A stretch of 46,700 nt of DNA from Nostoc linckia FACHB-104 (GTDB lineage: Bacteria > Cyanobacteriota > Cyanobacteriia > Cyanobacteriales > Nostocaceae). A program made the translations under genes and the position numbers. The notes under the pieces were generated by a model. The model had not been told where the DNA came from. It was given only the letters and a program-made list of their open reading frames with translations, and ran no database searches. Location: the NCBI RefSeq assembly GCF_014696615.1, contig NZ_JACJQJ010000066.1:1-46700 (forward strand). Reading direction: 5' to 3'. Below, one piece after another: positions 252 to 12,401 of the stretch; the stretch's first letter is position 1, and each line of letters starts with the position of its first letter.

Positions 252-806
252 ATGAAGAATGCTAGAAATCGTTGGATGTTGGCTATTAACTCAGCAGTGA
301 TGGTAGGAATGCCGACACTGCTATTTTTAGCATTTTACCATCGTGCCATAGCTGAAGATTTGGGAAGCTGTTTTATGGTGACTTCCTCTGGTAGAACTAT
401 CAGTTTAGGAAAGCTTTGTGGTGTCACACCCCCAGACAACGGAGTTTTTCGCGTACCAATCAAACGCCGTATTGGGAAAACTCCTGTGATTGATGTGACT
501 TTTAACCAGCGACAAACATTTGAGATGATTTTAGATACGGGTGCAAGTAGTACTCTGATAACTCTGAAAATGGCAGCTACTCTGCAACTCCAACCCACAG
601 GTAAAATCAACGCTCAAATTGCAGATGGAACTGTAGTGCAATTTTTAACGAGTCAGATCAAAGATATTACTGTAGGTGGAGCTGTAGCTAATAATATTGA
701 AGTTGCGATCGCACCTAAAGCTAGTATTGGTTTACTAGGTCACGATTTTTTTGACAACTACGACATCAAGATTTTAGAAAAAGAAGTGGAATTCCGCCAG
801 CGCTAA
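252..806 (+). CDS. Retropepsin-like (clan AA) aspartic protease, membrane-anchored
   Basis: This 184-residue protein has a hydrophobic N-terminal segment at about residues 13-34, consistent with a signal anchor, so the catalytic part should lie outside the cytoplasm. The active-site motif LDTGASSTLI is at about residues 94-103, with the catalytic Asp at 95. A later LGHDFF segment matches the C-terminal part of single-domain retropepsin folds, which work as homodimers. The length fits bacterial single-domain clan AA proteases. GGGAG lies about 11 bases before the ATG. It stands alone, followed by repeat-rich DNA and a gene on the opposite strand. The substrate is unknown. Confidence 0.75.
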   Translation: MKNARNRWMLAINSAVMVGMPTLLFLAFYHRAIAEDLGSCFMVTSSGRTISLGKLCGVTPPDNGVFRVPIKRRIGKTPVIDVTFNQRQTFEMILDTGASSTLITLKMAATLQLQPTGKINAQIADGTVVQFLTSQIKDITVGGAVANNIEVAIAPKASIGLLGHDFFDNYDIKILEKEVEFRQR

Positions 807-844
807 AGTGCTAGCGGCTAGGGACTAGAGGCTAGTGTTTTACT

Positions 845-913
845 CAGCAACGCCACTGGTCTTTAAGCCGGGAAACCCGTCCAACGCAGTAGCTCGTCAG
901 CAACGCCACTGGC
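845..913. repeat. Direct repeat of CAGCAACGCCACTGG
   Basis: The 15-mer CAGCAACGCCACTGG occurs at 845-859 and again at 898-912. The surrounding 820-1010 stretch is full of short palindromic and GC-rich pieces, for example CTCCTTCGGAGAACTC. No coding signal is seen. The core CAGCAACGCC returns at 42681-42690 in the arm of a hairpin, so this looks like an interspersed repeat family. Confidence 0.55.
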
Positions 914-1029
914 TACAACAGGGGGAAACCCCGCAACCCAGTGGCTCCACCCTGCGGGTACTCCTTCGGAGAACTCGTTAGAGTAGCCGCAGAAGCATCT
1001 ACAGCACTCAGCACTATCAAGACAAATTC

Positions 1030-1413
1030 TTAAAACTTGTATCCTCTAGCAAGCCAATATTGCCAGTCTGCAAGTGCTTCTTGGGTATCTTCATCAGCAT
1101 CTATTGCTTCTATTTCTGACAGCTTTGCCGAAAATATATCTTCATCGTCGCCACCAGGATAGACTACTTCAACATACATATCTTTTAAACAATCATCGTC
1201 AGGTGCCATTGCTAAAACTTCGACTAGTTTCTCTTCAATGACTCCTGTTTTGCGTGCTTTCTTTTTCAACTTGGCGTTAAAGGGAAAGTTCAGGGTATCG
1301 TCTAGATAGTAGTACCAACCCATCGCCCGTTCCTCTTTATCATTACCAGTATCGGCAATGATCTCTGTTTCAATGCGACTCTCGCGAGTTTCATCCCTTT
1401 CAACATTAGACAT
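1030..1413 (-). CDS. ccbP: CcbP-like calcium-binding protein
   Basis: A 127-residue acidic soluble protein. From about residue 31 it reads GWYYYLDDTLNFPF, then a basic KLKKKARK segment, then Asp/Glu-rich patches (APDDD, GGDDED, DADEDT) and a C-terminal WQYWLARGYKF. This arrangement resembles the cyanobacterial CcbP family, whose Anabaena member buffers calcium and is lowered during heterocyst differentiation. The first 30 residues are an acidic extension. They may be real, or translation may start at the internal Met near residue 31. The gene is monocistronic. The family call is made from memory of conserved segments; the symbol is tentative. Confidence 0.65.
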   Translation of the reverse strand: MSNVERDETRESRIETEIIADTGNDKEERAMGWYYYLDDTLNFPFNAKLKKKARKTGVIEEKLVEVLAMAPDDDCLKDMYVEVVYPGGDDEDIFSAKLSEIEAIDADEDTQEALADWQYWLARGYKF

Positions 1414-1686
1414 AAAATCCAGGCTTGCATAGGATAAATGTTCAAATATGTATACCCTGTTGGAGATTGCCTGTCAATTTCTTATGACTTCTCTGGACTA
1501 AAAACTTCAGGTGTGATTTAGGCTAATTACTCCATTTTTGGGTTTTTAAGCGATAAATCAGCTAATTTAGACCCCCACCTTTTGCTTCAGTAAGTGCTAT
1601 TCATCCATCAAGTGTCGTCTATTTACATAAGCTGGGCTTGCACAAGCCTACCTTTACAAGTTGAGCTATTTGAGTCTTGCATAGCA

Positions 1687-1816
1687 TAGGACTTACGCAA
1701 CGCCGATAATGTCATTGCGAGCGAAACGAAGTGTAGGGAAGCAATCCCAGCGTCAGCATAGATTAGTTCGCTATCACTCGTAATGACGGGGTTACGTTAT
1801 TTTTGCGTGAGTCCTA
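1687..1816. mobile_element. MITE-like non-autonomous element with TSD
   Basis: The 130-bp element has ends TAGGACTTACGCAA and TTGCGTGAGTCCTA, inverted repeats with one mismatch. It is flanked on both sides by TAGCA (1682-1686 and 1817-1821), a likely 5-bp target duplication. Inside, GTCATTGCGAGCGAAACGAA and GTTCGCTATCACTCGTAATGAC are a second, imperfect inverted pair, so the whole element can fold into a long hairpin. It has no coding capacity. The same outer ends flank a different interior at 33546-33682. Confidence 0.65.
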
Positions 1817-1821
1817 TAGCA

Positions 1822-2315
1822 CTAAAACAGTATTACTCTACCGCCAGAGTATTTTGTATCACTTCAGAAATAAGATACTTTTCTTACCATCTCTAGATAA
1901 CGTCTATTGTATTAAGGCAAAGACTATGAAATTTGATATAAGTATTTTATTATCATATATCAAAGTCTTTTTCTTAAAGAGAACAATAATTTTCTGTATA
2001 TTTTTGATAAAATTTTGAAAAGCTAAAATTCTCATCTCACAGATATAAAACATTTTGGTAAAGCTATTACAAAATTTATTTAATTTTTGAATAAGTTTTA
2101 GTAAAATTTCCTGTGCTTTCAGCCATGTATTTTTCAGTAATTGCGCTTACGGATTTTAGCAACAAGAATTTCTGACTTTGGTAATTAAGTTTGCACAAAA
2201 TAAGAATGACTCATCTGGGTACTTGCCTATATCGTATTAATCAAGCGAGGAGAGAAGCAAGCCAAAAAGCAGCAAGCAACTCGCGAAACTAATAAAAACC
2301 CAGGAGACTTTAATC
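1822..2315. other. AT-rich upstream region of the precursor genes
   Basis: About 490 bases without a credible gene. It is strongly AT-rich up to about 2200. Just before the first precursor it becomes purine-rich with repeated AGCAAGC-like words. The promoter of the precursor operon must lie here, but no confident -35/-10 pair was identified. Confidence 0.5.
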
Positions 2316-2528
2316 ATGTCTAACGAACTATTTACCGAAGTAACTGTTGAAGAACAAGAAATCGTAGCTGGTGGTACAGCAGCTAGTGTGCTAACTGTGA
2401 ACAGTTTTGAGCAGTTAATAGGAGCTTTAGCAGTATCATCCGCAAATAAGAATGGTGCAACCTCTGCTGCAAGTTTTAGTGAAATTACAAAGACATTCTC
2501 TTCATTGTTCGGTACTGTAATTCAGTAA
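2316..2528 (+). CDS. Double-glycine leader peptide precursor 1 (CTB-type bacteriocin-like)
   Basis: A 70-residue precursor starting MSNELFTEV. The leader has the ELxxxVxxEEQEIVAGG pattern of peptides matured by C39 peptidases, and cleavage is predicted after GG at about residue 20. The predicted core of about 50 residues is small-residue and hydrophobic (Ala, Ser, Leu, Val), has no Cys and reads as a helix-forming unmodified peptide. The shared segment SSANKNGATSAASFSEITKT is almost identical in precursor 2. CAGGAG lies 9 bases before the ATG. A hairpin terminator follows at once. The exporter with a C39 domain is encoded 870 bases downstream. It resembles peptides annotated in cyanobacteria as CTB-family bacteriocins; activity and target are unknown. 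Confidence 0.8.
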   Translation: MSNELFTEVTVEEQEIVAGGTAASVLTVNSFEQLIGALAVSSANKNGATSAASFSEITKTFSSLFGTVIQ

Positions 2529-2549
2529 TCATCTAGTTTTGTTTGGAAT

Positions 2550-2576
2550 CCGAATCTGCAAAATTTGCAGATTCGG
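2550..2576 (+). terminator. Hairpin after precursor 1
   Basis: CCGAATCTGCAAA and TTTGCAGATTCGG form a perfect 13-bp stem with a one-base centre. It is followed by GCTTCTT rather than a long T-run, so it may be a partial terminator or a 3' stabilising hairpin. It lies 22 bases after the stop of precursor 1. Confidence 0.7.
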
Positions 2577-2654
2577 GCTTCTTAAAACTGGAAATCAACT
2601 TACAGAAAGAAGATGAACTCGTGTAACTATCTAGAAAATCAGGAGATTCCAATC

Positions 2655-2867
2655 ATGTCTAACGAACTATTCACCGAAGTAAATGTTAACCAACAAGAAG
2701 TTGTAACTGGTGGTGCATCAGCTAGCGTAATCACAGTTAACAGTTTTGAGCAGTTATTAGCAGCCGCAGCATTATCATCTGCAAATAAGAATGGTGCAAC
2801 CTCTGCTGCAAGCTTTAGTGAAATAACCAAAACCTATTCTTCTTTATTGGGTACTTTAATTCAATAG
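2655..2867 (+). CDS. Double-glycine leader peptide precursor 2 (CTB-type bacteriocin-like)
   Basis: A 70-residue paralogue of precursor 1. The start at 2655 is chosen over an upstream in-frame ATG at 2613 because AGGAGA sits 8 bases before it and MSNELFTEV then aligns exactly with precursor 1. The leader ends EVVTGG and cleavage is predicted there. The core keeps SSANKNGATSAASFSEITKT, and changes are concentrated in hydrophobic positions (IGALAV to LAAAAL, FSSLFGTVIQ to YSSLLGTLIQ). A tandem duplication that included the terminator is the simplest origin. The pair could act as a two-peptide system or as redundant copies. Confidence 0.8.
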   Translation: MSNELFTEVNVNQQEVVTGGASASVITVNSFEQLLAAAALSSANKNGATSAASFSEITKTYSSLLGTLIQ

Positions 2868-2882
2868 TTATTGAGTTTATTT

Positions 2883-2919
2883 GAAATCCGAAGCTGCAAA
2901 ATTTGTAGCTTCGGATTTC
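2883..2919 (+). terminator. Hairpin after precursor 2
   Basis: GAAATCCGAAGCTGCAAA and TTTGTAGCTTCGGATTTC pair over 18 positions with one G-U wobble. Compared with the hairpin at 2550-2576, a T-to-G change in the left arm is matched by A-to-C in the right arm, so pairing is preserved. The following sequence is CTAGGC, with no long T-run. Confidence 0.7.
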
Positions 2920-3004
2920 TAGGCAATATGAACATACTATTAGTTTTAATCTCTAGTAGTTAGATGTTCGGTTGACAAATGAAAGACTCAAAAAGGTTAA
3001 GATT

Positions 3005-3322
3005 GTGTCTAATGTTATTAAGCCACAAGACTCCGAACTATTTATAGATTTGTCTGAAGAAGAACAAGCTTGTATATCTGGTGGAATTTCTAGTTCACAA
3101 TTTGCTTTCTACTTCCAAATGAGAAAAATAATGTCTTTCGCTGGAACTCAAATAAGTGTTTCTGGAGGAAGCCAGAATCTCTCTCTCAATCAACAAGCGA
3201 TATATGTATCTTCAGAAATTAATATTGGTGTTAATCCTTCTTTTTTTTCAGGTGGCAGTATTCAGAGCCGAAACAGACGTTTTAATACTTTCTTACGTTT
3301 TTTATGGTCAATTATAAATTAG
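3005..3322 (+). CDS. Divergent double-glycine precursor 3
   Basis: About 105 residues. Two starts are possible: TTG at 2972 or GTG at 3005. The latter is preferred because AAAAGG precedes it and it gives MSNVIKPQDSELFIDLSEEE, which aligns with the leaders of precursors 1 and 2. The leader ends ACISGG. The core is unrelated to the other two: about 78 residues, Ser/Phe/Asn-rich, ending in a basic aromatic tail (RNRRFNTFLRFLWSIIN). Two further SGG motifs occur inside the core. No clear terminator separates it from the exporter gene 74 bases downstream, so they are probably co-transcribed. Function unknown; the leader is the evidence for export. Confidence 0.65.
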   Translation: MSNVIKPQDSELFIDLSEEEQACISGGISSSQFAFYFQMRKIMSFAGTQISVSGGSQNLSLNQQAIYVSSEINIGVNPSFFSGGSIQSRNRRFNTFLRFLWSIIN

Positions 3323-3396
3323 ATTGATTTTTCCTAAATCTCAATTATTATGATTTCTTTGGCTCTAAATTTTCGGTTGTTTAGAGTAATTTACCT

Positions 3397-5547
3397 ATGA
3401 GATACAAATTTGTTAAACAGCATAGTGAAGAAGATTGCGGGGCTGCTTGTCTAGCTACAATTGCTAAACATTATGGGCATAACTTTACTCTCAACCACAT
3501 TCGAGAAGCTGTAGGTACTGGACAATTCGGTACTACTTTATTAGGGTTAAGACGCGGCGCAGAAATATTAGGGTTTAATACTCGTCCCGTTAAAACTTCA
3601 CCAGAAGTATTAAACCGAATGCATGAAGCACCTTTACCAGCAATTATTCATTGGCAAGGAAATCATTGGGTTGTATTATATGGTAAAAAGGGAAAAAAAT
3701 GTTTAATCGCTGATCCGGCTGTAGGTATTCGCTATCTCTCTAAAAAAGATTTAGTTGAGGGTTGGACAGATTGGTTAATGCTATTACTGGAACCAGATCC
3801 AGTTAGATTTTTTGCTCAAAATGATGATAGCATTGGTGGCTTTTGGCGCTTCTTTAAACGTGTTTGGAATTATCGCGCAATTCTAGCACAAGCCTTACCA
3901 CTGAATTTAATATTGGGCTTGTTATCTTTAGCTTCTCCTTTTTTATTACAAATACTAACAGATGATGTTTTAGTTCGCGGAGATACTAGCTTACTAACTA
4001 CTGTGGCAATATCTGTAGTAGTAATGAATTTTATTTCCAGTAGTCTTTCATTTGTCCAATCTAATTTAATTGCTAACTTTGCTCAACGCCTACAATTAGG
4101 GATGGTAATGGAATTTGGTAGGCAAATTCTGCGATTACCCTTAACTTATTACGAAACTCGTCGTAGTGGAGAAATAGTTAGCAGATTACAAGATATTGAA
4201 CAGATAAATCAATTAGTGTCACAAGTAGTTGTTGGGTTACCTAGCAAGTTTTTTATTGCAATCATCTCTTTAGGATTGATGATTTTTTATAGCTGGAAAT
4301 TAACTGCTGTGGCAGTATTTATATCTATATTTATGACCCTGTCAACAATAGTATTCCAGCCTACATTGCAGCAAAAAACTCGCGAGTTATTAGTAACAGA
4401 AGCTGAAACCCAAGGACTTTTAGTGGAAACATTTAAAGGCGCGCTGACTTTGAAAACTACTGCGTCTGCTCCACAATTTTGGGATGAACTGCAACATAGA
4501 TTTGGTCGTCTTGGTAATCTCACCTTTCGCACCATGCAAATTGGAATTATTAATAATACTTTTTCTGGTTTTATTTCTGCGATTGGTGCAGTTATTTTGC
4601 TGTGGTTTGGTGGTAACTTAGTAATTAATCCGGCTGAGAACCTCAGTATTGGGCAATTAATGGCGTTTAACTCTATGAATGGAAACTTTTTGGGGTTAAT
4701 CGCTACTGTAATTAGTTTTGTAGAAGAATTTACGCGGGCTAAAACTGCGACACAACGCTTGACAGAAGTTATTGATGCTACCCCAGAAAATGAAGGTGAT
4801 GGACGCAAACCTTTAGCTTATATTGCCAATGATGCTGATATTAACTGTACTAATCTCAGCTTCCATTATGCTGGTCGCTTGGACTTGTTAGATAATTTTT
4901 CGTTAACAATTCCTGGTGGTCAAGTTGTGGCATTAATTGGTAAATCTGGGTGCGGTAAAAGTACTCTAGCGAAATTAATTGCCGGGTTATATCAACTGCA
5001 ATCAGGTAATATCCAAATTGGTATATATAATATCCAAGACCTTTCTCTAGATTGTTTACGTCAACAGATTGTGCTAGTTCCGCAAGATGCTCACTTTTGG
5101 AATCGTTCTATTGTCGAAAACTTTCGTTTAGGAACGCCTCATATTAGCTTTGAACAAATTGTGAGAGCTTGCCAAATTTCTGGAGCCGACGAGTTTATTA
5201 ATAAATTCCCAGAGAAATATCAAACTATTTTAGGCGAATTTGGTGCCAATATCTCTGGCGGACAACGGCAACGATTGGCGATCGCACGGGCTATTGTCAC
5301 AGAACCGCCAGTTTTAATCTTGGATGAATCCACTGGTGGACTCGATCCAGTCAGTGAGGCGCAGGTTTTGGATCGACTGTTTGAGCATCGTCAAGGTAAA
5401 ACCACCATTTTGATTACACATCGCCCCAAAGTAATTAACCGTGCTGATTGGGTGGTTTTACTAGAAAACGGCAAATTAAAACTGCAAGGTTCTTTAAAAG
5501 ATTTGATATCCCAACCAGGCGACCATCTAGATTTTCTCATTCCTTAG
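3397..5547 (+). CDS. Peptidase-containing ABC transporter (C39 bacteriocin exporter)
   Basis: 716 residues, the usual size for a PCAT. Residues 1-125 are a C39 cysteine peptidase: Gln8, catalytic Cys14 in EEDCGAACL, His90 in GNHWVVLYG and Asp106 in ADP. Residues of about 150-440 contain the transmembrane ABC domain. The nucleotide-binding domain has Walker A GKSGCGKST at about 515, signature ISGGQRQRLAIARA, Walker B VLILDEST at about 640 and the H-loop ITHRP. The protein should cleave double-glycine leaders while exporting the core peptide across the inner membrane. All catalytic residues look intact. The three precursors directly upstream are its obvious substrates and the HlyD adaptor gene follows 29 bases later. 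It differs from the longer HetC exporter of heterocyst development. Confidence 0.93.
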   Translation: MRYKFVKQHSEEDCGAACLATIAKHYGHNFTLNHIREAVGTGQFGTTLLGLRRGAEILGFNTRPVKTSPEVLNRMHEAPLPAIIHWQGNHWVVLYGKKGKKCLIADPAVGIRYLSKKDLVEGWTDWLMLLLEPDPVRFFAQNDDSIGGFWRFFKRVWNYRAILAQALPLNLILGLLSLASPFLLQILTDDVLVRGDTSLLTTVAISVVVMNFISSSLSFVQSNLIANFAQRLQLGMVMEFGRQILRLPLTYYETRRSGEIVSRLQDIEQINQLVSQVVVGLPSKFFIAIISLGLMIFYSWKLTAVAVFISIFMTLSTIVFQPTLQQKTRELLVTEAETQGLLVETFKGALTLKTTASAPQFWDELQHRFGRLGNLTFRTMQIGIINNTFSGFISAIGAVILLWFGGNLVINPAENLSIGQLMAFNSMNGNFLGLIATVISFVEEFTRAKTATQRLTEVIDATPENEGDGRKPLAYIANDADINCTNLSFHYAGRLDLLDNFSLTIPGGQVVALIGKSGCGKSTLAKLIAGLYQLQSGNIQIGIYNIQDLSLDCLRQQIVLVPQDAHFWNRSIVENFRLGTPHISFEQIVRACQISGADEFINKFPEKYQTILGEFGANISGGQRQRLAIARAIVTEPPVLILDESTGGLDPVSEAQVLDRLFEHRQGKTTILITHRPKVINRADWVVLLENGKLKLQGSLKDLISQPGDHLDFLIP

Positions 5548-5576
5548 TTAATACTCATTTTCAGAGGGGATATGAT

Positions 5577-6986
5577 ATGCTCTACATTCATAATCAGAAA
5601 GTCCTACCTGAAGTCCAAGAAGATTTTATTCCTCCTGTGAGTGCTTGGACATCATTAGCAGGAATGTTTCTTGTTGGTAGTTTCGGTTCTGCGATCGCCC
5701 TCTCTTCATGGGTGAAATATAATGTCACTGTTAAAGCTCCAGCCAGTATCCGTCCTACTGGCGAAATTCGGCTAGCACAACCGAAAATGGAGGGAACTAT
5801 TAAACGGATTTTGGTGCAAGAAAATCAAGTGGTTAAGCAAGGAGATATTATTGCTTACCTTGATGATGAACAATTACAAATTAAAAAGAGCCAACTGCAA
5901 GGAAATAGTCAACAAGGTAGGTTACAAATAGATCAAATTGATGCTCAAATCAAGAATTTAGATAGCCAAATTCAAGCAGAAAAGACAGTAATAGAGAGGA
6001 CTGTAGCTGCAGCTCAATCTGATTTAGTACGTAATCAAAGAGAGTATCAAGAACGTCAAGTTACAACTCAAACCGACTTACAAGTAGCTGCAGCTAATTT
6101 GCAAAAAGCTTATACAGATTTGCAAAAAGCTCAAGCTGATTTGGAATTTGCAGATTCAACGCTTAATCGTTATAAAACCTTAGAAAAAGAAGGTGCTATT
6201 AGTACCTTTGAATTTGAGCAGAAAAAGTTCTTAGTTGAACAGACAAAAGCAGTTGTTGAAGGTGAGAGAAAAGCTGTTGAAATAGCTCAGGCTAAAGTGG
6301 AATCAGCTAGATCCGCCATTAATCCCACTGATGCAACAGTCGCAATAGCTAAAGAACGGATTGCTCAAGAAGTTGCTAGAGGTCAAGCCAACATTGCTAC
6401 TTTAAATAAAGAAAGACAAGCTTTAATTCAGCGACGAGTTGAAATTCAATCCCAATTAATCCAATTTCACAAAGAACTCGAGCAAGTTTTTAAACAATTA
6501 CAAGATACTGTGATTCGCGCCACTACTGAAGGTACTATTCTCAAGCTGAATTTACGCAATCCCGGACAGGTTGTGAGTGCTAGTGATGCGATCGCAGAAA
6601 TTGTACCTAGTAATGCACCTTTAGTAATTAAAGCCATTATTCCCACCCAAGATATTAAAAGTGTAGAAGTTGGTCAAGAAGTACAATTACGAATAGACTC
6701 TTGCCCTTATCCTGATTATGGGACTCTCAAAGGTGTTGTAAATACAGTTTCTCCAGATGTAATTACATCTCAAAATAACAGTACAAATTCTCCAACATCT
6801 AGTTCTAATATTCTAGCTGCTAGCTATTTTGAGGCTACTATCGCACCAGAAAGTTTAGTATTCGGTCATCAGAAACATCAGTGTCATATCCAATTAGGTA
6901 TGGATGCTAAAGCTTATATTATCTCTAAACGCGAAACAGCGCTGCAATTTATGTTGCGAAAGGCAAGATTAATTACTGATATATAA
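5577..6986 (+). CDS. HlyD-family periplasmic adaptor (membrane fusion protein)
   Basis: 469 residues from the ATG at 5577. A longer frame opens at 5448 inside the exporter gene, but AGAGGGG lies 7 bases before 5577 and the upstream part has no family character. There is one N-terminal membrane span at about residues 24-46, then a biotinyl-lipoyl half-motif (ENQVVKQGDIIAYLDDE), a long coiled coil with many Gln/Ala/Lys heptads at about 100-310, and a second lipoyl/beta-barrel half (NPGQVVSASDAIAEIVPS). It should bridge the PCAT to an outer-membrane TolC-like channel, which is not encoded here. It is the last gene of the operon before the terminator at 7108. Confidence 0.9.
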   Translation: MLYIHNQKVLPEVQEDFIPPVSAWTSLAGMFLVGSFGSAIALSSWVKYNVTVKAPASIRPTGEIRLAQPKMEGTIKRILVQENQVVKQGDIIAYLDDEQLQIKKSQLQGNSQQGRLQIDQIDAQIKNLDSQIQAEKTVIERTVAAAQSDLVRNQREYQERQVTTQTDLQVAAANLQKAYTDLQKAQADLEFADSTLNRYKTLEKEGAISTFEFEQKKFLVEQTKAVVEGERKAVEIAQAKVESARSAINPTDATVAIAKERIAQEVARGQANIATLNKERQALIQRRVEIQSQLIQFHKELEQVFKQLQDTVIRATTEGTILKLNLRNPGQVVSASDAIAEIVPSNAPLVIKAIIPTQDIKSVEVGQEVQLRIDSCPYPDYGTLKGVVNTVSPDVITSQNNSTNSPTSSSNILAASYFEATIAPESLVFGHQKHQCHIQLGMDAKAYIISKRETALQFMLRKARLITDI

Positions 6987-7107
6987 ATCAGTATATTTCA
7001 TTTCAGCCAACTTCTCTGTGTAGTCAGTCAAGCGAGAAAAATAATACATAAAGCGTAAATTTTCTACAAAAAATCAAATTTATAGCTTAATTTTACTGTT
7101 TACATAG

Positions 7108-7140
7108 TTGATTGCCTAAGTTTAGGCAATCAAGATTTTT
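7108..7140 (+). terminator. Rho-independent terminator of the exporter operon
   Basis: TTGATTGCCTAA, loop GT and TTAGGCAATCAA form a perfect 12-bp stem followed by GATTTTTATTT. This is the clearest terminator on the plus strand in this part of the window. It separates the precursor/exporter operon from the signalling genes that follow. Confidence 0.85.
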
Positions 7141-7325
7141 ATTTGCAAAATACCGATATTCATATAAACATCAAGTCTATAAAAATCCTATGCATATTTT
7201 TATAATTATCATCAAAATCGTGGGCAGTTTTCTTATTCAATTTAAACATTTCACAAAAGATAAATCTGATATATTTTGCTTAAAAGCTCTATTTAATTGG
7301 CATAAAATACCCATCAAAACTTCCT

Positions 7326-8033
7326 GTGAAACTGCTATTGTGGACGCAAGTTATACTGTTAATAGCCAGCTTCATAACCCTCCTCTGGTTTATCAGCTCT
7401 GAATTAAGAATTCGGCAATCATTAAAATGGTGGTCTTATCAAGAGTCGATAAAAAGATTTTTAGAAGCTGAAAAAATTCGGGATGATTTATTGCAGGAAT
7501 CCTTTATTATCAGGCGCAATCTAGAAATGTTAACAGTAGATAATTTAGATTTATCAGTTAACAAAATTCAAGAATCTGTTAAAAAAATTGATAGGTTCCA
7601 TCAATCTTTGGTGGAATTGAGCGATCGCTTATTTCCATCGCAGCTACAGTATAGCTTGCCGTTAGCTATTGATTGTTTATTACAGTCTAGGCTGACGAAT
7701 AATTCTCAGTTCTCTTTTCATAGTGACATGCCAGTGATCTGGCAACATCAGTCAACCGAACAAAGCCTAGTAATTTTAAGCCTGTTAGAGGAATTGCTTA
7801 CAATAGCTTTGCCGCAAGTTTTAACACCTATATCAATTTATATTAATTTAAAGCAATGCAAGAATTTATGCCATTTAATGGTACAAATTACTTATCCGGA
7901 TGTATCTACACGTGTTTCGTACGCTAATCTACGAGAATTACAATATTTATGTGACAGCTTTTACCTATTAACTTCAGGTAAATGTTTTTATCGCAGTACC
8001 AACCTCATGCTAACCTGGTATTTCTACTGGTAA
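7326..8033 (+). CDS. Membrane-anchored degenerate sensor-kinase-like protein
   Basis: 235 residues from a GTG at 7326. One membrane span at about residues 4-25 is followed by a cytoplasmic helical region. Residues of about 48-70 (EAEKIRDDLLQESFIIRRN) match the dimerisation helix of NarL-type sensor kinases (ER.RIARDLHD..LQ), but the phosphorylated His is replaced by Leu. The C-terminal half has the general size of an ATPase domain but no recognisable N, G1 or G2 box. It is therefore probably a pseudokinase or a partner protein for the CHASE2 kinase. A response regulator follows 387 bases later. The start codon is uncertain because no good ribosome-binding site is seen. Confidence 0.55.
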   Translation: MKLLLWTQVILLIASFITLLWFISSELRIRQSLKWWSYQESIKRFLEAEKIRDDLLQESFIIRRNLEMLTVDNLDLSVNKIQESVKKIDRFHQSLVELSDRLFPSQLQYSLPLAIDCLLQSRLTNNSQFSFHSDMPVIWQHQSTEQSLVILSLLEELLTIALPQVLTPISIYINLKQCKNLCHLMVQITYPDVSTRVSYANLRELQYLCDSFYLLTSGKCFYRSTNLMLTWYFYW

Positions 8034-8348
8034 GCATCAGTTAATATTACTATCAGCGGTTTTAATTGAAGACCTCTAGATCGTCAATTTGATAATTGCT
8101 CAGGGCATCTTCCTTTGTCAATAACATAATTACAAATTATACAATCATAAATTCAGCGTTTTTTCTGATAAACATTAACAATCTAGCTTCAAATAGCTGC
8201 TTTTACTTCGACTGATCGCTAAGTAGAGATTCAGGAATACTAGTCCCTAATTTCCTTTTTATCCTGCGATTTTCTGCAATTTATAAATATTTGCAAGGAA
8301 ATGCTGTGAATAGGGATGAAAAGAATAACAAATGACAAAGAAGCACAA

Positions 8349-8383
8349 TTTTCATCTGCCTTGCTATAAGCAGTAGATGAAAA
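8349..8383 (+). promoter_or_regulatory. Long hairpin in the leader of the response-regulator gene
   Basis: TTTTCATCT pairs with AGATGAAAA over 9 bp, enclosing an inner TGCT/AGCA stem. It ends 37 bases before the ATG at 8421. There is no T-run, so an operator or a leader structure is more likely than a terminator. Confidence 0.45.
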
Positions 8384-8420
8384 CTTAGTATTTACTTAGT
8401 TCGATAACGAGGTGTTAATT

Positions 8421-9098
8421 ATGACACAACTTGCAGCAGAGAAGAAATTGCTCACCATTTTGGTCATTGACGATCATGAATCAGTGTTAGGTGGAACAGT
8501 CGATGTACTGAAAAAAAAATATGCTAGTGCAAAATTTATTACTGCAATCAATGCTAAGAACGCTCTCGAGCAGATGATGATATCACAGGCAGATCTTGTA
8601 GTGATGGATCTATCAATGCCAGAATACCCCGGAGCAACAGCACGTCCTGATACAGGAATTCAACTTCTAAGGAATCTGATGAAATCTTATCCGCATTTAG
8701 ATATTGTTGTTCAAAGCGCCCATGCTAGAACTCTAGTCAGAATTAGACCAGAGATTGATAGTCATAAAGGTGGCTTTACAGTTGCAGATAAAAGCCTTTC
8801 TACCCAAGAAATGTTAACTAGAGTTGACTGGGCATTACAGGGATTAACTCATACTAAAGATATCAAAGGTATCAATTCAGGATTAGAGGTGAAACCAGAA
8901 TGGCTGAAGGTACTGACTTTAGCATTTGAAGAAGGTTTACAAGATAAAACGATCGCAGAAAGAATGTGTATGTCTGAACGCATGGTGCGTCATTACTGGA
9001 ATAAGCTACAAGATGCTTTAGATGTTTACCCAGAAGAAGGTAAAAATATCCGCATTCAAACGGAAATGAAAGCTCGACATGAAGGGTTAATTGATTGA
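8421..9098 (+). CDS. NarL/LuxR-type response regulator
   Basis: 225 residues. The ATG at 8421 is preferred over the GTG at 8412 because GAGGTG lies 6 bases upstream of it. The receiver domain (about 10-145) has the acidic pair Asp17-Asp18, phospho-acceptor Asp63 in VVMDLSMP and the conserved Lys in VADKSLS. The C-terminal helix-turn-helix (about 160-210, EEGLQDKTIAERMCMSERMV) is of the GerE/LuxR class. It should bind DNA after phosphorylation, probably by the CHASE2 kinase encoded 500 bases downstream. Nearby candidate targets are the precursor/exporter operon or this signalling set itself; this is inferred from position only. Confidence 0.85.
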   Translation: MTQLAAEKKLLTILVIDDHESVLGGTVDVLKKKYASAKFITAINAKNALEQMMISQADLVVMDLSMPEYPGATARPDTGIQLLRNLMKSYPHLDIVVQSAHARTLVRIRPEIDSHKGGFTVADKSLSTQEMLTRVDWALQGLTHTKDIKGINSGLEVKPEWLKVLTLAFEEGLQDKTIAERMCMSERMVRHYWNKLQDALDVYPEEGKNIRIQTEMKARHEGLID

Positions 9099-9149
9099 CC
9101 ATAGTCAAGCTTTATTAGGTGCTGCTTCTGTGAATTATCAAATATTTAG

Positions 9150-9214
9150 TTCGTAATGACACAAGTATTAAGGCAAAATTAATTACACAATTTATTAGAC
9201 AATGTCATTGCGAA
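9150..9214. repeat. Inverted-repeat element with TTCGTAATGACA arms
   Basis: TTCGTAATGACA at 9150-9161 and TGTCATTGCGAA at 9203-9214 are inverted repeats with one mismatch around 41 bp of AT-rich DNA. The same GTCATTGCGA / TCGTAATGAC arms form the inner palindrome of the element at 1687-1816. The rest of 9099-9597 shows no gene. Confidence 0.5.
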
Positions 9215-9597
9215 TACAACAAAGTGAAACTTTCCCATTAGCCTTTGGCGTTCCCGCAGAGTAAGCTGTTTTGTTGAAGGAAAATACTTTCAGCAAACAG
9301 CTAATACTCTTGGGGAAGACCAAGGGCGATCGCATTGAATGTAAATATTTTTTTCTAATTACTTCTAAGGCTCAAATCCATTGCTAACAGGGGCAACACT
9401 TAGATATAAAATTAAATCAGGATTTGAGTAAATCCCCATATTTAAGGTTGACTATTGCTTAGGTCTTATTTGTAACCGTAAGCAAATTGAAGTTAGGAAA
9501 ATTTAATATGCATTTGTTAATAATGATTAATTTTTGAATAATGATGAATTATTATCAGTGATTTGTATTTAATAACTAAAGACTAGGAAACTGGTTT

Positions 9598-11481
9598 ATG
9601 CAGCCTGGAATTTGGAGAAGAATCAAAGAGGAAATCTCCATTTGGCGTGTAGGAACGCTACCCGGGATTGTAGTACTTTGTCTGGTGATTATTGTTCGTC
9701 TGACTGGTGCAATGCAATCTTTAGAGTGGCTAGTGTTTGATAGTTTCCTCCGTCTACGTCCTGTGGAATCTACAGATGAACGAATTGTAATTGTTGGTAT
9801 TAATGAAGATGATATCCATGATTTTGGATATCCAATTCCAGATCAAGAAATGGCAAGTCTGTTAAAAAAATTGCAGGCTTATGCTCCTCGAGCTATCGGT
9901 GTTGATGTTGTTAGAGATATACCAGTTGAGCCAGGCTCTGCTGAACTATCCAGCACATTTCAACAACATAAAAATTTAATTGGGATTGAAAAAGCATTAC
10001 CTGTAACAATCGATCCACCACCATATTTACCTGACGCACAAATCGGTTTTGTAGATCAAATCCCAGATGCGGATGGTAAATTAAGACGCAGCCTACTAGG
10101 AACAATTACACCAAAAGGATACAAATTTGCTTTATCTCTGAAGTTAGCACAGATGTATTTAGCTGATGAAGGCATTCAGTTAAAACATGGAGTAGGCGAT
10201 CGCAATCCAATCTGGGTTGGTAATATTCAACTTCCCCGTGTCTACAGCAACTCTGGCGGATATGTGCGAACAGACGCAGGTGGATTTCAGGTATTACTCA
10301 ACTTTCGTAGTGGCCAAGAACGATTTAGAACAATGACTCTTGGCGATATTAAAGCAGGAAAATTCCAGCCTGATTGGATACGCGATCGCATTGTAATTAT
10401 CGGCATGACAGCCCCTAGTGCGAAAGACTTTACCACGACTTCTGCTATTCCGTCGGCACAATTTGCACCACCAGGCCAAGTTTATGGCGTAGAAATTCAT
10501 GCTCATGCTGTTAGCCAAATTATCAGCGCAGTTCTCAATTCTCGACCCCTATTAAAGACTTGGGAAGATGAATGGGAATATCTTTGGATTATTGCTTGGG
10601 GTTTTTTAGGAATTGCTCACGCTAGGCTAACTAAATTACCTTTGCTTAATCTTGTAACCATTGCTTTTGCTAGCTTTATTCTTGTTCTTGTAGCTTATGT
10701 ATTTTTAATTTTGGGTTGGTGGATTCCTCTAGCACCAGCCATAATTATTTATACTTTTAATTCTCTAGGTCTCACCGCTTTATATCAATATGAACAAACT
10801 CTAAAAGCAGAAATTAATGCCCATTATACGATGATTGAACGCACATTTGAAACAATTCATAATGGGCCTCTACAAACTCTAGCTAAAGTATTAAAACTAG
10901 TTAAAGAACAGAGCTTACCGGCAGATCAATTACTACCTGAAATTGAAAAAGAACTAGAAAAATTAAATCACGATTTGCGGGGAATTTATGAATTCTTGCA
11001 ACGAGAACCTGTAAATCAGGATAAAAGTTTATATTTAGGACAAGGGCTAGTCATCAATTTACATGATCCTATCCACCAGATTCTTTATCAAGTTTACAGC
11101 TATACTTTAGAGCGAGACTTTCCCTGCTTTAAAACCATCAGAGTTAAAATCCGCACATTTGAACCTATCGAAGAGAAGGGATTGAGTATTGAACAAAAAA
11201 GAGGACTCTGCCGATTTTTAGAAGAAGCATTGTGTAATGTTGGCAAACACGCTGCCGGAGTCACCCGTCTAGAAGTTAATTGTTCTTCATCTGAAGGCTG
11301 GCACACGTTAAGTATTATCGATGATGCATTAGCTATTAGTTCTTATAAAGAAGGTAGAGGAACACAACAATTTAGAAATTTAGCTCGACAACTTAAAGGT
11401 AAGTTTCGGCGGGTTTCTCTGTCTCCTAGAGGTACCCTTTGTGAACTTTCTTGGCCAGCTAGCAAGTTTTGGTTCTATTAA
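9598..11481 (+). CDS. CHASE2-domain sensor histidine kinase
   Basis: 627 residues. After one membrane span (about 20-40) comes a periplasmic CHASE2 sensory domain (about 45-320, containing ERIVIVGINEDDI and IGVDVVRD). Three closely spaced membrane spans follow at about 330-400. The cytoplasmic part has a HisKA_3-like helix with His421 in FETIHNGPLQTL, then an ATPase region with an N-box-like EEALCNVGKHA at about 542-552. The G1 box is degenerate (IIDDALAISS instead of DNG.G), so ATP binding may be atypical. It is probably the partner of the response regulator at 8421. The ligand is unknown. Confidence 0.85.
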   Translation: MQPGIWRRIKEEISIWRVGTLPGIVVLCLVIIVRLTGAMQSLEWLVFDSFLRLRPVESTDERIVIVGINEDDIHDFGYPIPDQEMASLLKKLQAYAPRAIGVDVVRDIPVEPGSAELSSTFQQHKNLIGIEKALPVTIDPPPYLPDAQIGFVDQIPDADGKLRRSLLGTITPKGYKFALSLKLAQMYLADEGIQLKHGVGDRNPIWVGNIQLPRVYSNSGGYVRTDAGGFQVLLNFRSGQERFRTMTLGDIKAGKFQPDWIRDRIVIIGMTAPSAKDFTTTSAIPSAQFAPPGQVYGVEIHAHAVSQIISAVLNSRPLLKTWEDEWEYLWIIAWGFLGIAHARLTKLPLLNLVTIAFASFILVLVAYVFLILGWWIPLAPAIIIYTFNSLGLTALYQYEQTLKAEINAHYTMIERTFETIHNGPLQTLAKVLKLVKEQSLPADQLLPEIEKELEKLNHDLRGIYEFLQREPVNQDKSLYLGQGLVINLHDPIHQILYQVYSYTLERDFPCFKTIRVKIRTFEPIEEKGLSIEQKRGLCRFLEEALCNVGKHAAGVTRLEVNCSSSEGWHTLSIIDDALAISSYKEGRGTQQFRNLARQLKGKFRRVSLSPRGTLCELSWPASKFWFY

Positions 11482-11510
11482 TAATTTAAATTTATATCAC
11501 TCTTGCCCCA

Positions 11511-11533
11511 TTTGAGAACTGGAGCTTCTCAAA
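11511..11533 (+). terminator. Hairpin after the CHASE2 kinase
   Basis: TTTGAGAA, a 7-base loop and TTCTCAAA form a perfect 8-bp stem 29 bases after the stop codon. No T-run follows, so it is only a possible terminator. Confidence 0.45.
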
Positions 11534-12401
11534 AGAAATAATTAATAGTATTAGATTTTACATTAAAATAGATTATAAAAGACTCAGGTTACAAACTACC
11601 CGATGTTATAGTTTATATTTCTTATTTGTGAATTTAGTTGTACAGTCTCGACAGTAAAAGCGTTTGAAATTTATGTTTACACTCCTGTAAAGCATTTAAT
11701 AATTCGATGTTTTTAATTATATAGTTTGCTTATCCTACCTTAGTAAGTAACCTCAAAAAGAAACTGGTATAATTTATATGAGATAATTTGTTGCTATGAC
11801 TTAAATAAAAATTAGTCAAATTATGGCTTGTATACTCTATCACCTAAAATAATTTACATTTTCTATAAATTTGATTACATAAAAACTCTATATCTAATGA
11901 TAGATGCTTTTATATGTTTGGATATGTATACTGGAGGGGGCTTAAGCCAAATTATATCTACATAGGGTCAAAGCCATTTGCTGACACAAATACAGATGGA
12001 GCGAATTCTAAGATTAAGATATTCCGTTCATTTATAACAATTAGGTAGTTTTCTATCAGAGAATAGAATTAATAAATTACCAATTTTTAAATTACCTTTT
12101 GGGTGCAGACTACAGATAAATACAGATTCAGTGCAATATTCCTAGCTTTCACTTATAAATGATGGTTGGGGTTAATTACCGTGAAATTAAAGGTAAAAAT
12201 TAAGTTTAGCAATTAAGCACTGAACTGTTAATAAGTAGGCTAGATTTAACCCAACTATGTAAAATTTTATAGGGAGAAAGGAGAACTCTTTTCCCTTGAC
12301 TCTTCTAAAAATAGTCATGTGCGATCGCTAACCTACTTATTCATACATAATTTGTCAAAAGTTTTTTGATAATTTCCCCGTGCAATGCCGGAGGCTTAAC
12401 A
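11534..12401. other. AT-rich intergenic stretch without visible genes
   Basis: About 870 bases with no frame of convincing coding character on either strand. There is one GCGATCGC site near 12322, a GGAGGGGGCTTAAGCC block near 11935 with no start codon after it, and a purine-rich GGGAGAAAGGAGAA block near 12270. No RNA gene was recognised. Confidence 0.4.

Follow-up and report, generated by a model that had tools for sequence, protein, structure and literature searches.

A conserved locus for the probable export of double-glycine peptides in Nostoc linckia, with a homology break at the Gly-Gly codons of the class A precursor

Several described systems resemble the locus analyzed here, as far as the available portions of the cited papers go. 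The Group III bacteriocin clusters of cyanobacteria combine a short-type PCAT (C39 peptidase, transmembrane and nucleotide-binding domains) with an HlyD protein and several precursors, on average 3.89 per cluster (Wang et al. 2011, PMC3140520). The EbfG peptides of Synechococcus elongatus likewise carry GG leaders and use a C39 exporter, PteB; their cores are said to be without homologues in other cyanobacteria (PMC4997328, PMC9981879). The prochlorosins, lanthipeptides with Nif11-type leaders, share a conserved leader ending in GG and a hypervariable core for which recombination is suspected (PMC10783134). The pneumococcal blp locus encodes GG peptides, an ABC exporter and a regulator pair, and shows allelic diversity with leader recombination (PMC4860687).

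The window, i.e. the whole analyzed stretch of 46,700 nucleotides from Nostoc linckia FACHB-104, differs from each of these. Judged by the domain content of ten scanned ORFs (short-type PCAT, HlyD and precursors) its locus is of the Group III kind, but the regulatory triplet, the upstream element, the two precursor classes and the proposed core replacement described below go unmentioned in the available text of PMC3140520. Prochlorosins are modified by a LanM-type enzyme (PMC10783134, in the portion available), whereas such an enzyme is missing from our locus, whose cores are free of Cys and whose single conserved slot shows an abrupt break at GG. The blp locus possesses a signal peptide of its own and numerous immunity genes according to the available part of PMC4860687; neither was identified at the window's locus.

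All features lie on the forward strand. The segment 2316-6986 holds three precursors (two of class A, one of class B), an intact C39 exporter and HlyD. Class A precursor 1 (2316-2528, 70 residues) starts with the leader MSNELFTEVTVEEQEIVAGG (2316..2375). Class A precursor 2 (2655-2867, 70 residues) is a near-duplicate with 79% amino acid identity; a longer ORF from 2613 is its in-frame upstream extension. The class B precursor, precursor 3 (3005-3322, 105 residues, best start GTG 3005), is a single copy with a basic tail and scores 123.3 bits with its own HMM. The short-type PCAT (3397-5547) consists of a C39 peptidase (PF03412, 4.5e-37) with catalytic Cys/His/Asp fused to ABC transmembrane and nucleotide-binding domains (PF00664, PF00005), the arrangement that defines a PCAT. 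All 75 aligned orthologues have Cys14, His90 and Asp106, and the triad that a first-pass annotation had called intact is confirmed. The HlyD-type periplasmic adaptor follows from an ATG at 5577 to 6986 (PF13437, 7e-17). Profile scans of ten ORFs (252-11478) revealed no modification enzyme, and the translated mature parts of all three precursors contain no cysteine, both as annotated. That PCAT and HlyD mature and export unmodified double-glycine peptides is well supported at the level of sequence, and the gene set probably cuts and secretes small peptides.

Precursors 1 and 2 exceed the curated cut-off (32 bits) of the NCBIfam model NF038167, "CTB family bacteriocin", with 35.9 and 34.9 bits, whereas precursor 3 lies just below it (31.3 bits). 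Leaders are similar to those of CTB precursors, and a central GPxG-like motif occurs in about half of the A cores. The window precursors belong to or border on this known cyanobacterial family, and the basic finding is not new. Three points extend beyond the family: a larger unit with an upstream element, two precursor classes and a homology break at Gly-Gly.

Among the matches listed, PCATs of 75% identity or more occur at no fewer than 101 places (L014 is a named copy of one). Working down from the top of the list and skipping some near relatives, we took 70 loci including the window (two each from genomes G017 and G122); neither own paralogues nor the distant PCATs L118-L131 enter the counts. 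A and/or B precursors precede the orthologous PCATs in 54 of the 70 loci, a strong result for the co-occurrence that had earlier been set as a test. Together with the scores of precursors 1 and 2 this makes the cassette more than chance.

The two precursor classes differ in copy number. Class A is multi-copy, with arrays of up to nine genes whose members are mostly of one core type within a locus (by eye), while class B occurs once per locus, as the last gene before the PCAT, in all 45 loci that have it. Of 88 distinct A cores, 42 contain a loose central motif, [GS][PFY]xG[SAG], against a mean of 4.5 and a maximum of 10 after shuffling. The "invariant middle segment" noted by the first-pass annotation holds between the two near-duplicate A copies of the window but not at other loci, where the A core is hypervariable. 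Its suggestion of a two-peptide agent is matched by the architecture (multi-copy A, single-copy B) but finds no support as to function; compared with class IIb systems, two predicted classes of unmodified GG peptide are present.

The export genes are real, but the end of the unit had been set too early, at 7140: it runs to 11481 and includes three regulatory genes (7326-11481) that the earlier cassette lacked, as it did the upstream element and the leader-anchored break. In 58 of 70 loci the exporter is found together with HlyD and all three of these genes. The first, o235 (7326..8033), encodes an orphan protein with an N-terminal hydrophobic helix. It has no Pfam match at E≤1 and a single NCBIfam match (E = 0.73, far under that model's cut-off); Pfam scans of 36 relatives yielded only scattered weak matches. 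Nevertheless, 78 of 82 close o235 homologues lie within 8 kb of a listed PCAT. By eye we suspected a degenerate histidine kinase, an idea that was discarded since a profile-profile comparison with the kinase gave nothing and a PDB profile search returned chance-level matches only. The AlphaFold model, built on a two-sequence alignment, was too poor for use (mean pLDDT 44).

The second gene encodes a response regulator (8421..9098; receiver PF00072, 3.8e-11) with a C-terminus that looks HTH-like by eye; D63 and the C-terminal region are conserved. It was the only protein with matches in a defence-system library, the best being SduA (E = 3.7e-10 over the receiver region), which we take as receiver-domain similarity. 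The third is a CHASE2 histidine kinase (9598..11481; PF05226, 6.2e-66) with conserved motifs IHNGPLQ and EEALCNVGKHA and profile matches to VraS (4gt8, E = 0.0011) and DosT (3zxq, E = 0.0067). All or part of CHASE2 is missing in 20 of 61 kinases. The triplet also accompanies an unrelated cargo, class C, in 12 of 13 class C loci. Of twelve distant triplets eleven are complete; in ten the stretch read shows no leader-like ORF, and the other two (L137, L138) also have a PCAT. Distant copies adjoin DUF928 genes (6/6 checked) or CHAT genes (3/3 checked), and one checked copy adjoins a gene with a TPS-secretion domain.

Upstream of the first precursor we found a bipartite element, TGTATTTTTCrG ... 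TGGTAATTAAGTTTGCA (2126..2195), whose form was derived from k-mers across loci; fixed motif strings guessed from the window were present in at most 4 of 45 loci. When 2 and 3 mismatches are permitted, 55 of 67 loci have both halves. The first lies at -159 to -227 (-266 in one locus) and the second at -125 to -157 (-212 in one locus), with a spacing of mostly 54-55 or 32 nt. As an exact pattern the window's version occurs once in the genome. No paired copy was found near the distant triplets, which argues against a general binding site of the regulator family, and the idea of an RNA element was dropped as positions 1400-12000 gave no Rfam match. Presence of the regulator is weakly associated with the element (Fisher's test, p = 0.04, with four regulator-less loci and a hand-made list of six loci with neither half, loci near contig ends left out). 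From this association and the neighborhood we infer that the triplet may control the cluster.

Comparison with four congeners located a sharp boundary. Homology ends at 2375, 2375, 2375 and 2374, i.e. at the last or last-but-one base of the Gly-Gly codons of the A leader. The leader is 93-98% identical in nucleotides, and the aligned flanks mostly 86-94%, whereas the core and its 3' flank do not align. The segment 2376..2960 (A1 core, 3' flank and A2 gene) is 0% aligned to three congeners and 14% to the fourth, in the A2 leader region only; hairpins lie within it at 2550-2576 (A1 3' flank) and 2883-2919 (after the A2 gene). Positions 1817-2315 upstream of A1 and the checked gaps from HlyD to the kinase align over 100% of their length at 79-97% identity, so neutral drift at such divergence is still alignable. 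Among five congeners (the B gene of L051 is blank in this comparison, not split) the A leaders are 85-100%, PCATs 97-99%, response regulators 97-100% and CHASE2 sensors 92-94% identical. The A cores, at 19-35%, fall largely to the shuffled level (mean 23%, 95th percentile 30%, which 8 of 10 pairs do not exceed). In the closest relatives nearly all else is unchanged, but the first peptide appears to have had its active part exchanged exactly where the exporter is expected to cut. Two A cores were searched in 217 genomes; each was found in one, its own, and no donor came to light.

In a survey of 51 close pairs (PCATs of unequal length and 12 matches without a fitting leader pattern were skipped), homology broke within 9 nt of GG in 40, spread over nine of eleven clades, the pairs not being independent. 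None ended 10-60 nt beyond GG and nine ran on for more than 60 nt. No such break was seen at 235 random PCAT anchors. Of the 40 broken pairs, 31 have core DNA within the 95th percentile of codon-shuffled cores; nine are above it, four of these above the shuffled maximum, and in L115/L099 and L115/L100 the core stands at 76%. Breaks in such pairs may be indels between homologous cores, and since about half of the A cores have the central motif in common, the cores may be strongly diverged homologues and not unrelated cassettes. Class B is mostly unbroken at GG (9 of 37 broken, 19 run through). The class B core of one congener (L050) finds no match at E≤1e-4 in the seven other genomes of the genus, yet 32 of 217 genomes contain one, the best outside its own genome being 54-60% identical. 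This suggests that the allele came from outside the genus.

As a control we used CTB precursors elsewhere in these genomes, found by tblastn and represented by the matches listed, with the C46 queries outside that listing; their leaders differ, and a leader-pattern scan found none. The main control precursors in four same-genus genomes (G002, G003, G005, G007) are kept through the core at 82% or more among the matches listed, whereas the A core at the window's locus does not align. The control comparison is not clean: matching precursors of same-genus G001 reach no more than 47-52% identity, and additional precursors in three control arrays match through the leader alone.

Based on these results we propose, with a probability of roughly 60%, that the locus is a regulated type I export chassis. 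It would secrete small unmodified double-glycine peptides, and its cargo slot would be exchangeable and diversified by recombination. Transcription would be driven from the region that holds the conserved bipartite element, under control of the neighboring triplet of o235, response regulator and histidine kinase. The PCAT would cleave the leaders behind GG; together with HlyD and an outer-membrane channel, presumably encoded at another place, it would export multi-copy A and the single-copy, basic B. The class A core would be diversified by recombination that replaces whole DNA segments, with the conserved promoter and leader on the left and the region of the B gene and PCAT on the right serving as arms; through such replacement between fixed arms each strain would secrete its own peptide through an unchanged machine.

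Antagonism, recognition and a surface or matrix role are unproven candidate functions. The likeliest, held tentatively, is antagonism between strains, which by itself has somewhat less than even odds, or recognition; in either case A would confer specificity and B would be the constant partner. Typical bacteriocin loci carry an immunity gene. In the non-aligning segment of six loci we found ORFs of 30-70 residues but no convincing immunity gene; the segment of L053 contains a hydrophobic ORF of 50 residues. Slightly more speculative is a dedicated cargo-swapping locus. Its promoter element and leader would serve as an invariable docking arm, and all DNA between the protease cut site and the next constant gene would be exchanged by recombination. 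Through an unaltered exporter and regulator each strain would send out a peptide of its own that marks identity or acts as a weapon, with no immunity gene paired to it.

It is possible, if doubtful, that the products are surface or biofilm-matrix peptides like EbfG, exported by the PCAT and deposited outside, with a core free to change or under phage or grazer pressure. Immunity would be unneeded, in keeping with the segments of the six loci, and the DUF928, CHAT and TPS-domain neighbors of distant triplets also fit. EbfG1-4 are GG-leader proteins whose secretion depends on the C39 cysteine of PteB (PMC4997328, available part); EbfG1-3 form amyloid, and EbfG4 is found on cells and in the matrix (PMC9981879, available part). 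Against this, the CTB model has no match (0/14, E≤0.01) in control genomes that include S. elongatus, and the available portions of both papers describe no triplet, strain-by-strain turnover or single conserved B partner for EbfG.

Unlikely as an account of the break is differential loss, by which strains each kept a different gene of an ancestral A array through deletions between leader repeats, with no horizontal replacement. Such deletions would likewise break at GG; A arrays do reach nine genes and control arrays do contain precursors alike in the leader only, but copies within one locus are mostly of one core type (by eye) and the class B case of L050 points outside the genus.

More improbable still is a pheromone circuit in which the adjacent kinase senses an exported A or B peptide and activates the cluster via the response regulator. 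Peptide, exporter, kinase and regulator do adjoin, all four downstream genes being present in 58 of 70 loci, and the upstream element is conserved. However, the CHASE2 sensor (92-94%) does not vary with the A cores (19-35%), CHASE2 is absent or partial in a third of the kinases counted above (20/61), the same triplet serves class C, and most distant triplets show no leader-like ORF on the stretch that was read. The lack of receptor co-variation disfavors this model and weakens the cell-cell signals suggested in the first-pass annotation; a link through B, o235 or the membrane part of the kinase is a possible route for signaling. Rapid point changes that positive selection drives in the core alone are very improbable: leader and core are under different constraints and 9 of 40 broken pairs keep core similarity above shuffled, but the non-coding 3' flank is lost too while other neutral gaps align, and break positions are all-or-none.

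Leader peptides are regarded as export and maturation tags. With the proposed cargo slot, the leader-core border looks like a recombination border too, and new peptides would arise export-ready. Leader-anchored swapping could explain the many unrelated GG peptides in cyanobacteria, and the natural cores of congeneric strains make the role of orphan cores, a long-open question, testable. The triplet and the operon element would provide a regulatory handle on when such clusters switch on.

The window carries two class A double-glycine precursors (precursor 1, 2316–2528; precursor 2, 2655–2867), a class B precursor with a GTG start (precursor 3, 3005–3322), an exporter with C39, ABC membrane and ATPase domains (PCAT, 3397–5547) and an HlyD gene (5577–6986). 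With the NCBIfam model NF038167 (CTB family bacteriocin; cut-off 32 bits) precursors 1 and 2 scored 35.9 and 34.9 bits and precursor 3 fell just below with 31.3 bits. All 75 aligned orthologues of the exporter have Cys14, His90 and Asp106. The first-pass annotation of three double-glycine precursors, an exporter with an intact catalytic triad and HlyD is thus confirmed. Near-perfect hairpins with 1-nt loops lie 3' of precursors 1 and 2 (2550–2576 and 2883–2919, respectively) and are possibly terminators or processing sites setting peptide ratios.

For comparison we assembled 70 loci including the window by taking the neighbourhoods of orthologous PCATs, which share at least 77% identity, from Nostocaceae genomes; they were drawn from 101 PCAT places at 75% identity or more among the matches listed. 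Precursor classes were scored with profiles derived from these same loci, a choice that favours their own members; on this basis 43 loci carry classes A and B, 9 only A, 2 only B (in L074 on a weak match), 13 an unrelated class C and 3 none. All 45 loci that carry class B have one copy of it, placed immediately upstream of the PCAT; 43 of these have one to nine class A copies and two have none. The median net charge is 0 for A cores and +4 for B cores, and cysteine occurs in 0 of 93 A cores and 2 of 38 B cores. Class C (L076, L080, L094–L097, L103–L105, L112, L113, L116, L117) uses the same chassis with a leader of the type ..EESAtVSGG and a core of the type ..FdLntYLfILGAGVvFGnpGLT.., which is more similar between loci than the class A core. 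On a PCAT tree built by a quick method the cargo type (A/B or C) changes 3 times compared to 13 in shuffles, so exporter and cargo class are linked, while the regulators serve A/B and C alike.

These regulators form a triplet 3' of the cassette: an orphan protein of 235 residues (o235), a response regulator and a CHASE2 histidine kinase. HlyD and the triplet are complete in 58 of the 70 loci; three lack o235 alone, two lie too near a contig end to be judged, and L083 has its kinase match on the opposite strand. An aspartyl protease-like gene and CcbP, upstream of the window's cassette, are present in the four closest loci only. Compared with the window, one congener (L053) has insertions of ~200 nt and 1.1 kb near its o235 and kinase, located behind HlyD and ahead of the kinase gene. 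In the kinase the His motif and the N box are conserved, and its profile matches VraS and DosT weakly. CHASE2 is absent or incomplete in 20 of 61 kinases (L057–L060, L064, L068, L071, L077, L082, L084–L086, L088, L090, L091, L095, L102, L106, L111, L116); these 20 keep the membrane-kinase part, which suggests an input other than CHASE2 in these orthologous loci. We found o235 in 83 of 145 genomes; of 82 close homologues, 78 have an orthologous-type PCAT no more than 8 kb away. Distant triplet copies were also observed (L132–L143, L145), several adjoining DUF928 and CHAT-TPR genes. Eleven of 12 examined keep all three genes (L139 has o235 alone); alongside them we found DUF928 genes wherever checked (6 of 6), likewise CHAT genes (3 of 3), and, in one case, a TPS-domain gene. 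The triplet is thus a portable signalling cassette of three genes, the first of them an orphan, and is not tied to these peptides. L137 and L138 have a PCAT on the same stretch, and L140 and the less distant copy L145 an ABC exporter/HlyD pair nearby.

Upstream of the first precursor we identified a bipartite element, TGTATTTTTCGG and GGTAATTAAGTTTGCA. Both halves occur in 55 of 67 precursor-carrying loci (up to 2 mismatches in the first and 3 in the second), mostly spaced by 54–55 or 32 nt, a difference of about two helical turns; the halves were found 64 and 15 times in 741,746 nt downstream. Searched as an exact pattern, the window's version is unique in its genome, although degenerate copies may exist elsewhere in it, and Rfam families gave no match in 1400–12000. 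Both halves were missing from 4 of 61 loci with the response regulator and from 2 of the 4 lacking it (Fisher p = 0.04), a weak association. Further upstream, a MITE-like stretch of ~130 nt (1686–1816) is missing from all four congeners. By eye its ends form an imperfect inverted repeat (TAGGACTTACGCAA / TTGCGTGAGTCCTA); these ends were not among the repeats called by the tool.

The flanks of the cassette are 86–94% identical to the four congeners in the main blocks. The alignments stop at 2375, 2375, 2375 and 2374; the Gly-Gly codons of precursor 1 end at 2375. Three congeners show no alignment over the following 585 nt (2376–2960), and the fourth aligns there solely in the leader region of precursor 2 (14%). 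Homology is lost on the 3' flank of the A core as well. The stretch 1817–2315 and the checked gaps from HlyD to the kinase align fully at 79–97%, the short gap between class B and PCAT partly (20–100%). A cores of the window and congeners are 19–35% identical (shuffled mean 23%, 95th percentile 30%), with 2 of 10 pairs above this percentile (31 and 35%), whereas A leaders are 85–100%, PCATs 97–99% and response regulators 97–100% identical. Since neutral gaps still align at this divergence, the lost homology calls for an explanation by DNA replacement instead of drift. The left homology arm would be the promoter together with the leader, both of which are conserved.

A wider survey covered 51 close pairs from 38 loci, which are not independent events because pairs share loci. 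The break lies within 9 nt of the Gly-Gly codons in 40 pairs (within 3 nt in 34) and in 9 of 11 clades; none of the remaining pairs ends 10–60 nt past them, nine extend more than 60 nt past and two stop at −19. Random anchors within PCAT gave no such break (0 of 235). Core DNA of 31 broken pairs is inside the 95th percentile of codon-shuffled cores; the other nine reach 63–76% vs a shuffled maximum of 66%. Cores of L115 with L099 and with L100 (76%) are plainly homologous, so an indel may account for the break seen in these two ungapped comparisons.

Class B mostly stays homologous over its whole length (19 of 37 pairs), with 9 of 37 broken at Gly-Gly. The differing B core of congener L050 has matches in 32 of 217 genomes, the best outside its own 54–60% identical, and none at E ≤ 1e-4 in the seven other same-genus genomes; this case favours outside sources of new cores. 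The A core of the window and that of L053 were each found in a single genome of 217. As a control we used CTB precursors on two other contigs of the window genome: those of G002, G003, G005 and G007 are at least 82% identical to them, core included, and those of G001 47–52%. Three control arrays (L123, L153, L154) are mixed, also holding precursors that match through the leader alone and share no more than the leader with their array neighbours; leader-core shuffling may thus occur inside arrays too. These mixed arrays keep differential loss within an array alive as the alternative origin of the new cores.

Parts of this picture are already known from published accounts. Group III clusters, catalogued in 2011 (PMC3140520), share with the window a short PCAT, HlyD and several (there about four) precursors; conserved leaders with hypervariable cores are described for prochlorosins (PMC10783134) and leader recombination for the pneumococcal blp locus (PMC4860687). 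In the open-licence PMC literature we found no paper linking a CHASE2 kinase to cyanobacterial bacteriocins and, by titles and abstract openings, no description of this system. In Nodularia, genes that carry the CTB annotation, in an operon that may or may not be of this type, are reported to rise under phosphate limitation (PMC9846622).

No convincing candidate for an immunity gene travels with the non-aligning segment in six loci, short ORFs aside. A surface or matrix role like that reported for the EbfG proteins of Synechococcus elongatus (PMC4997328; PMC9981879) is therefore well alive. A pheromone read by CHASE2, one form of the cell-cell signalling raised as a possibility in the first-pass annotation, is disfavoured, given a CHASE2 domain 92–94% identical among five congeners with divergent A cores and the kinases lacking all or part of that domain. 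The diversity of the peptides by strain suggests a function in antagonism or recognition.
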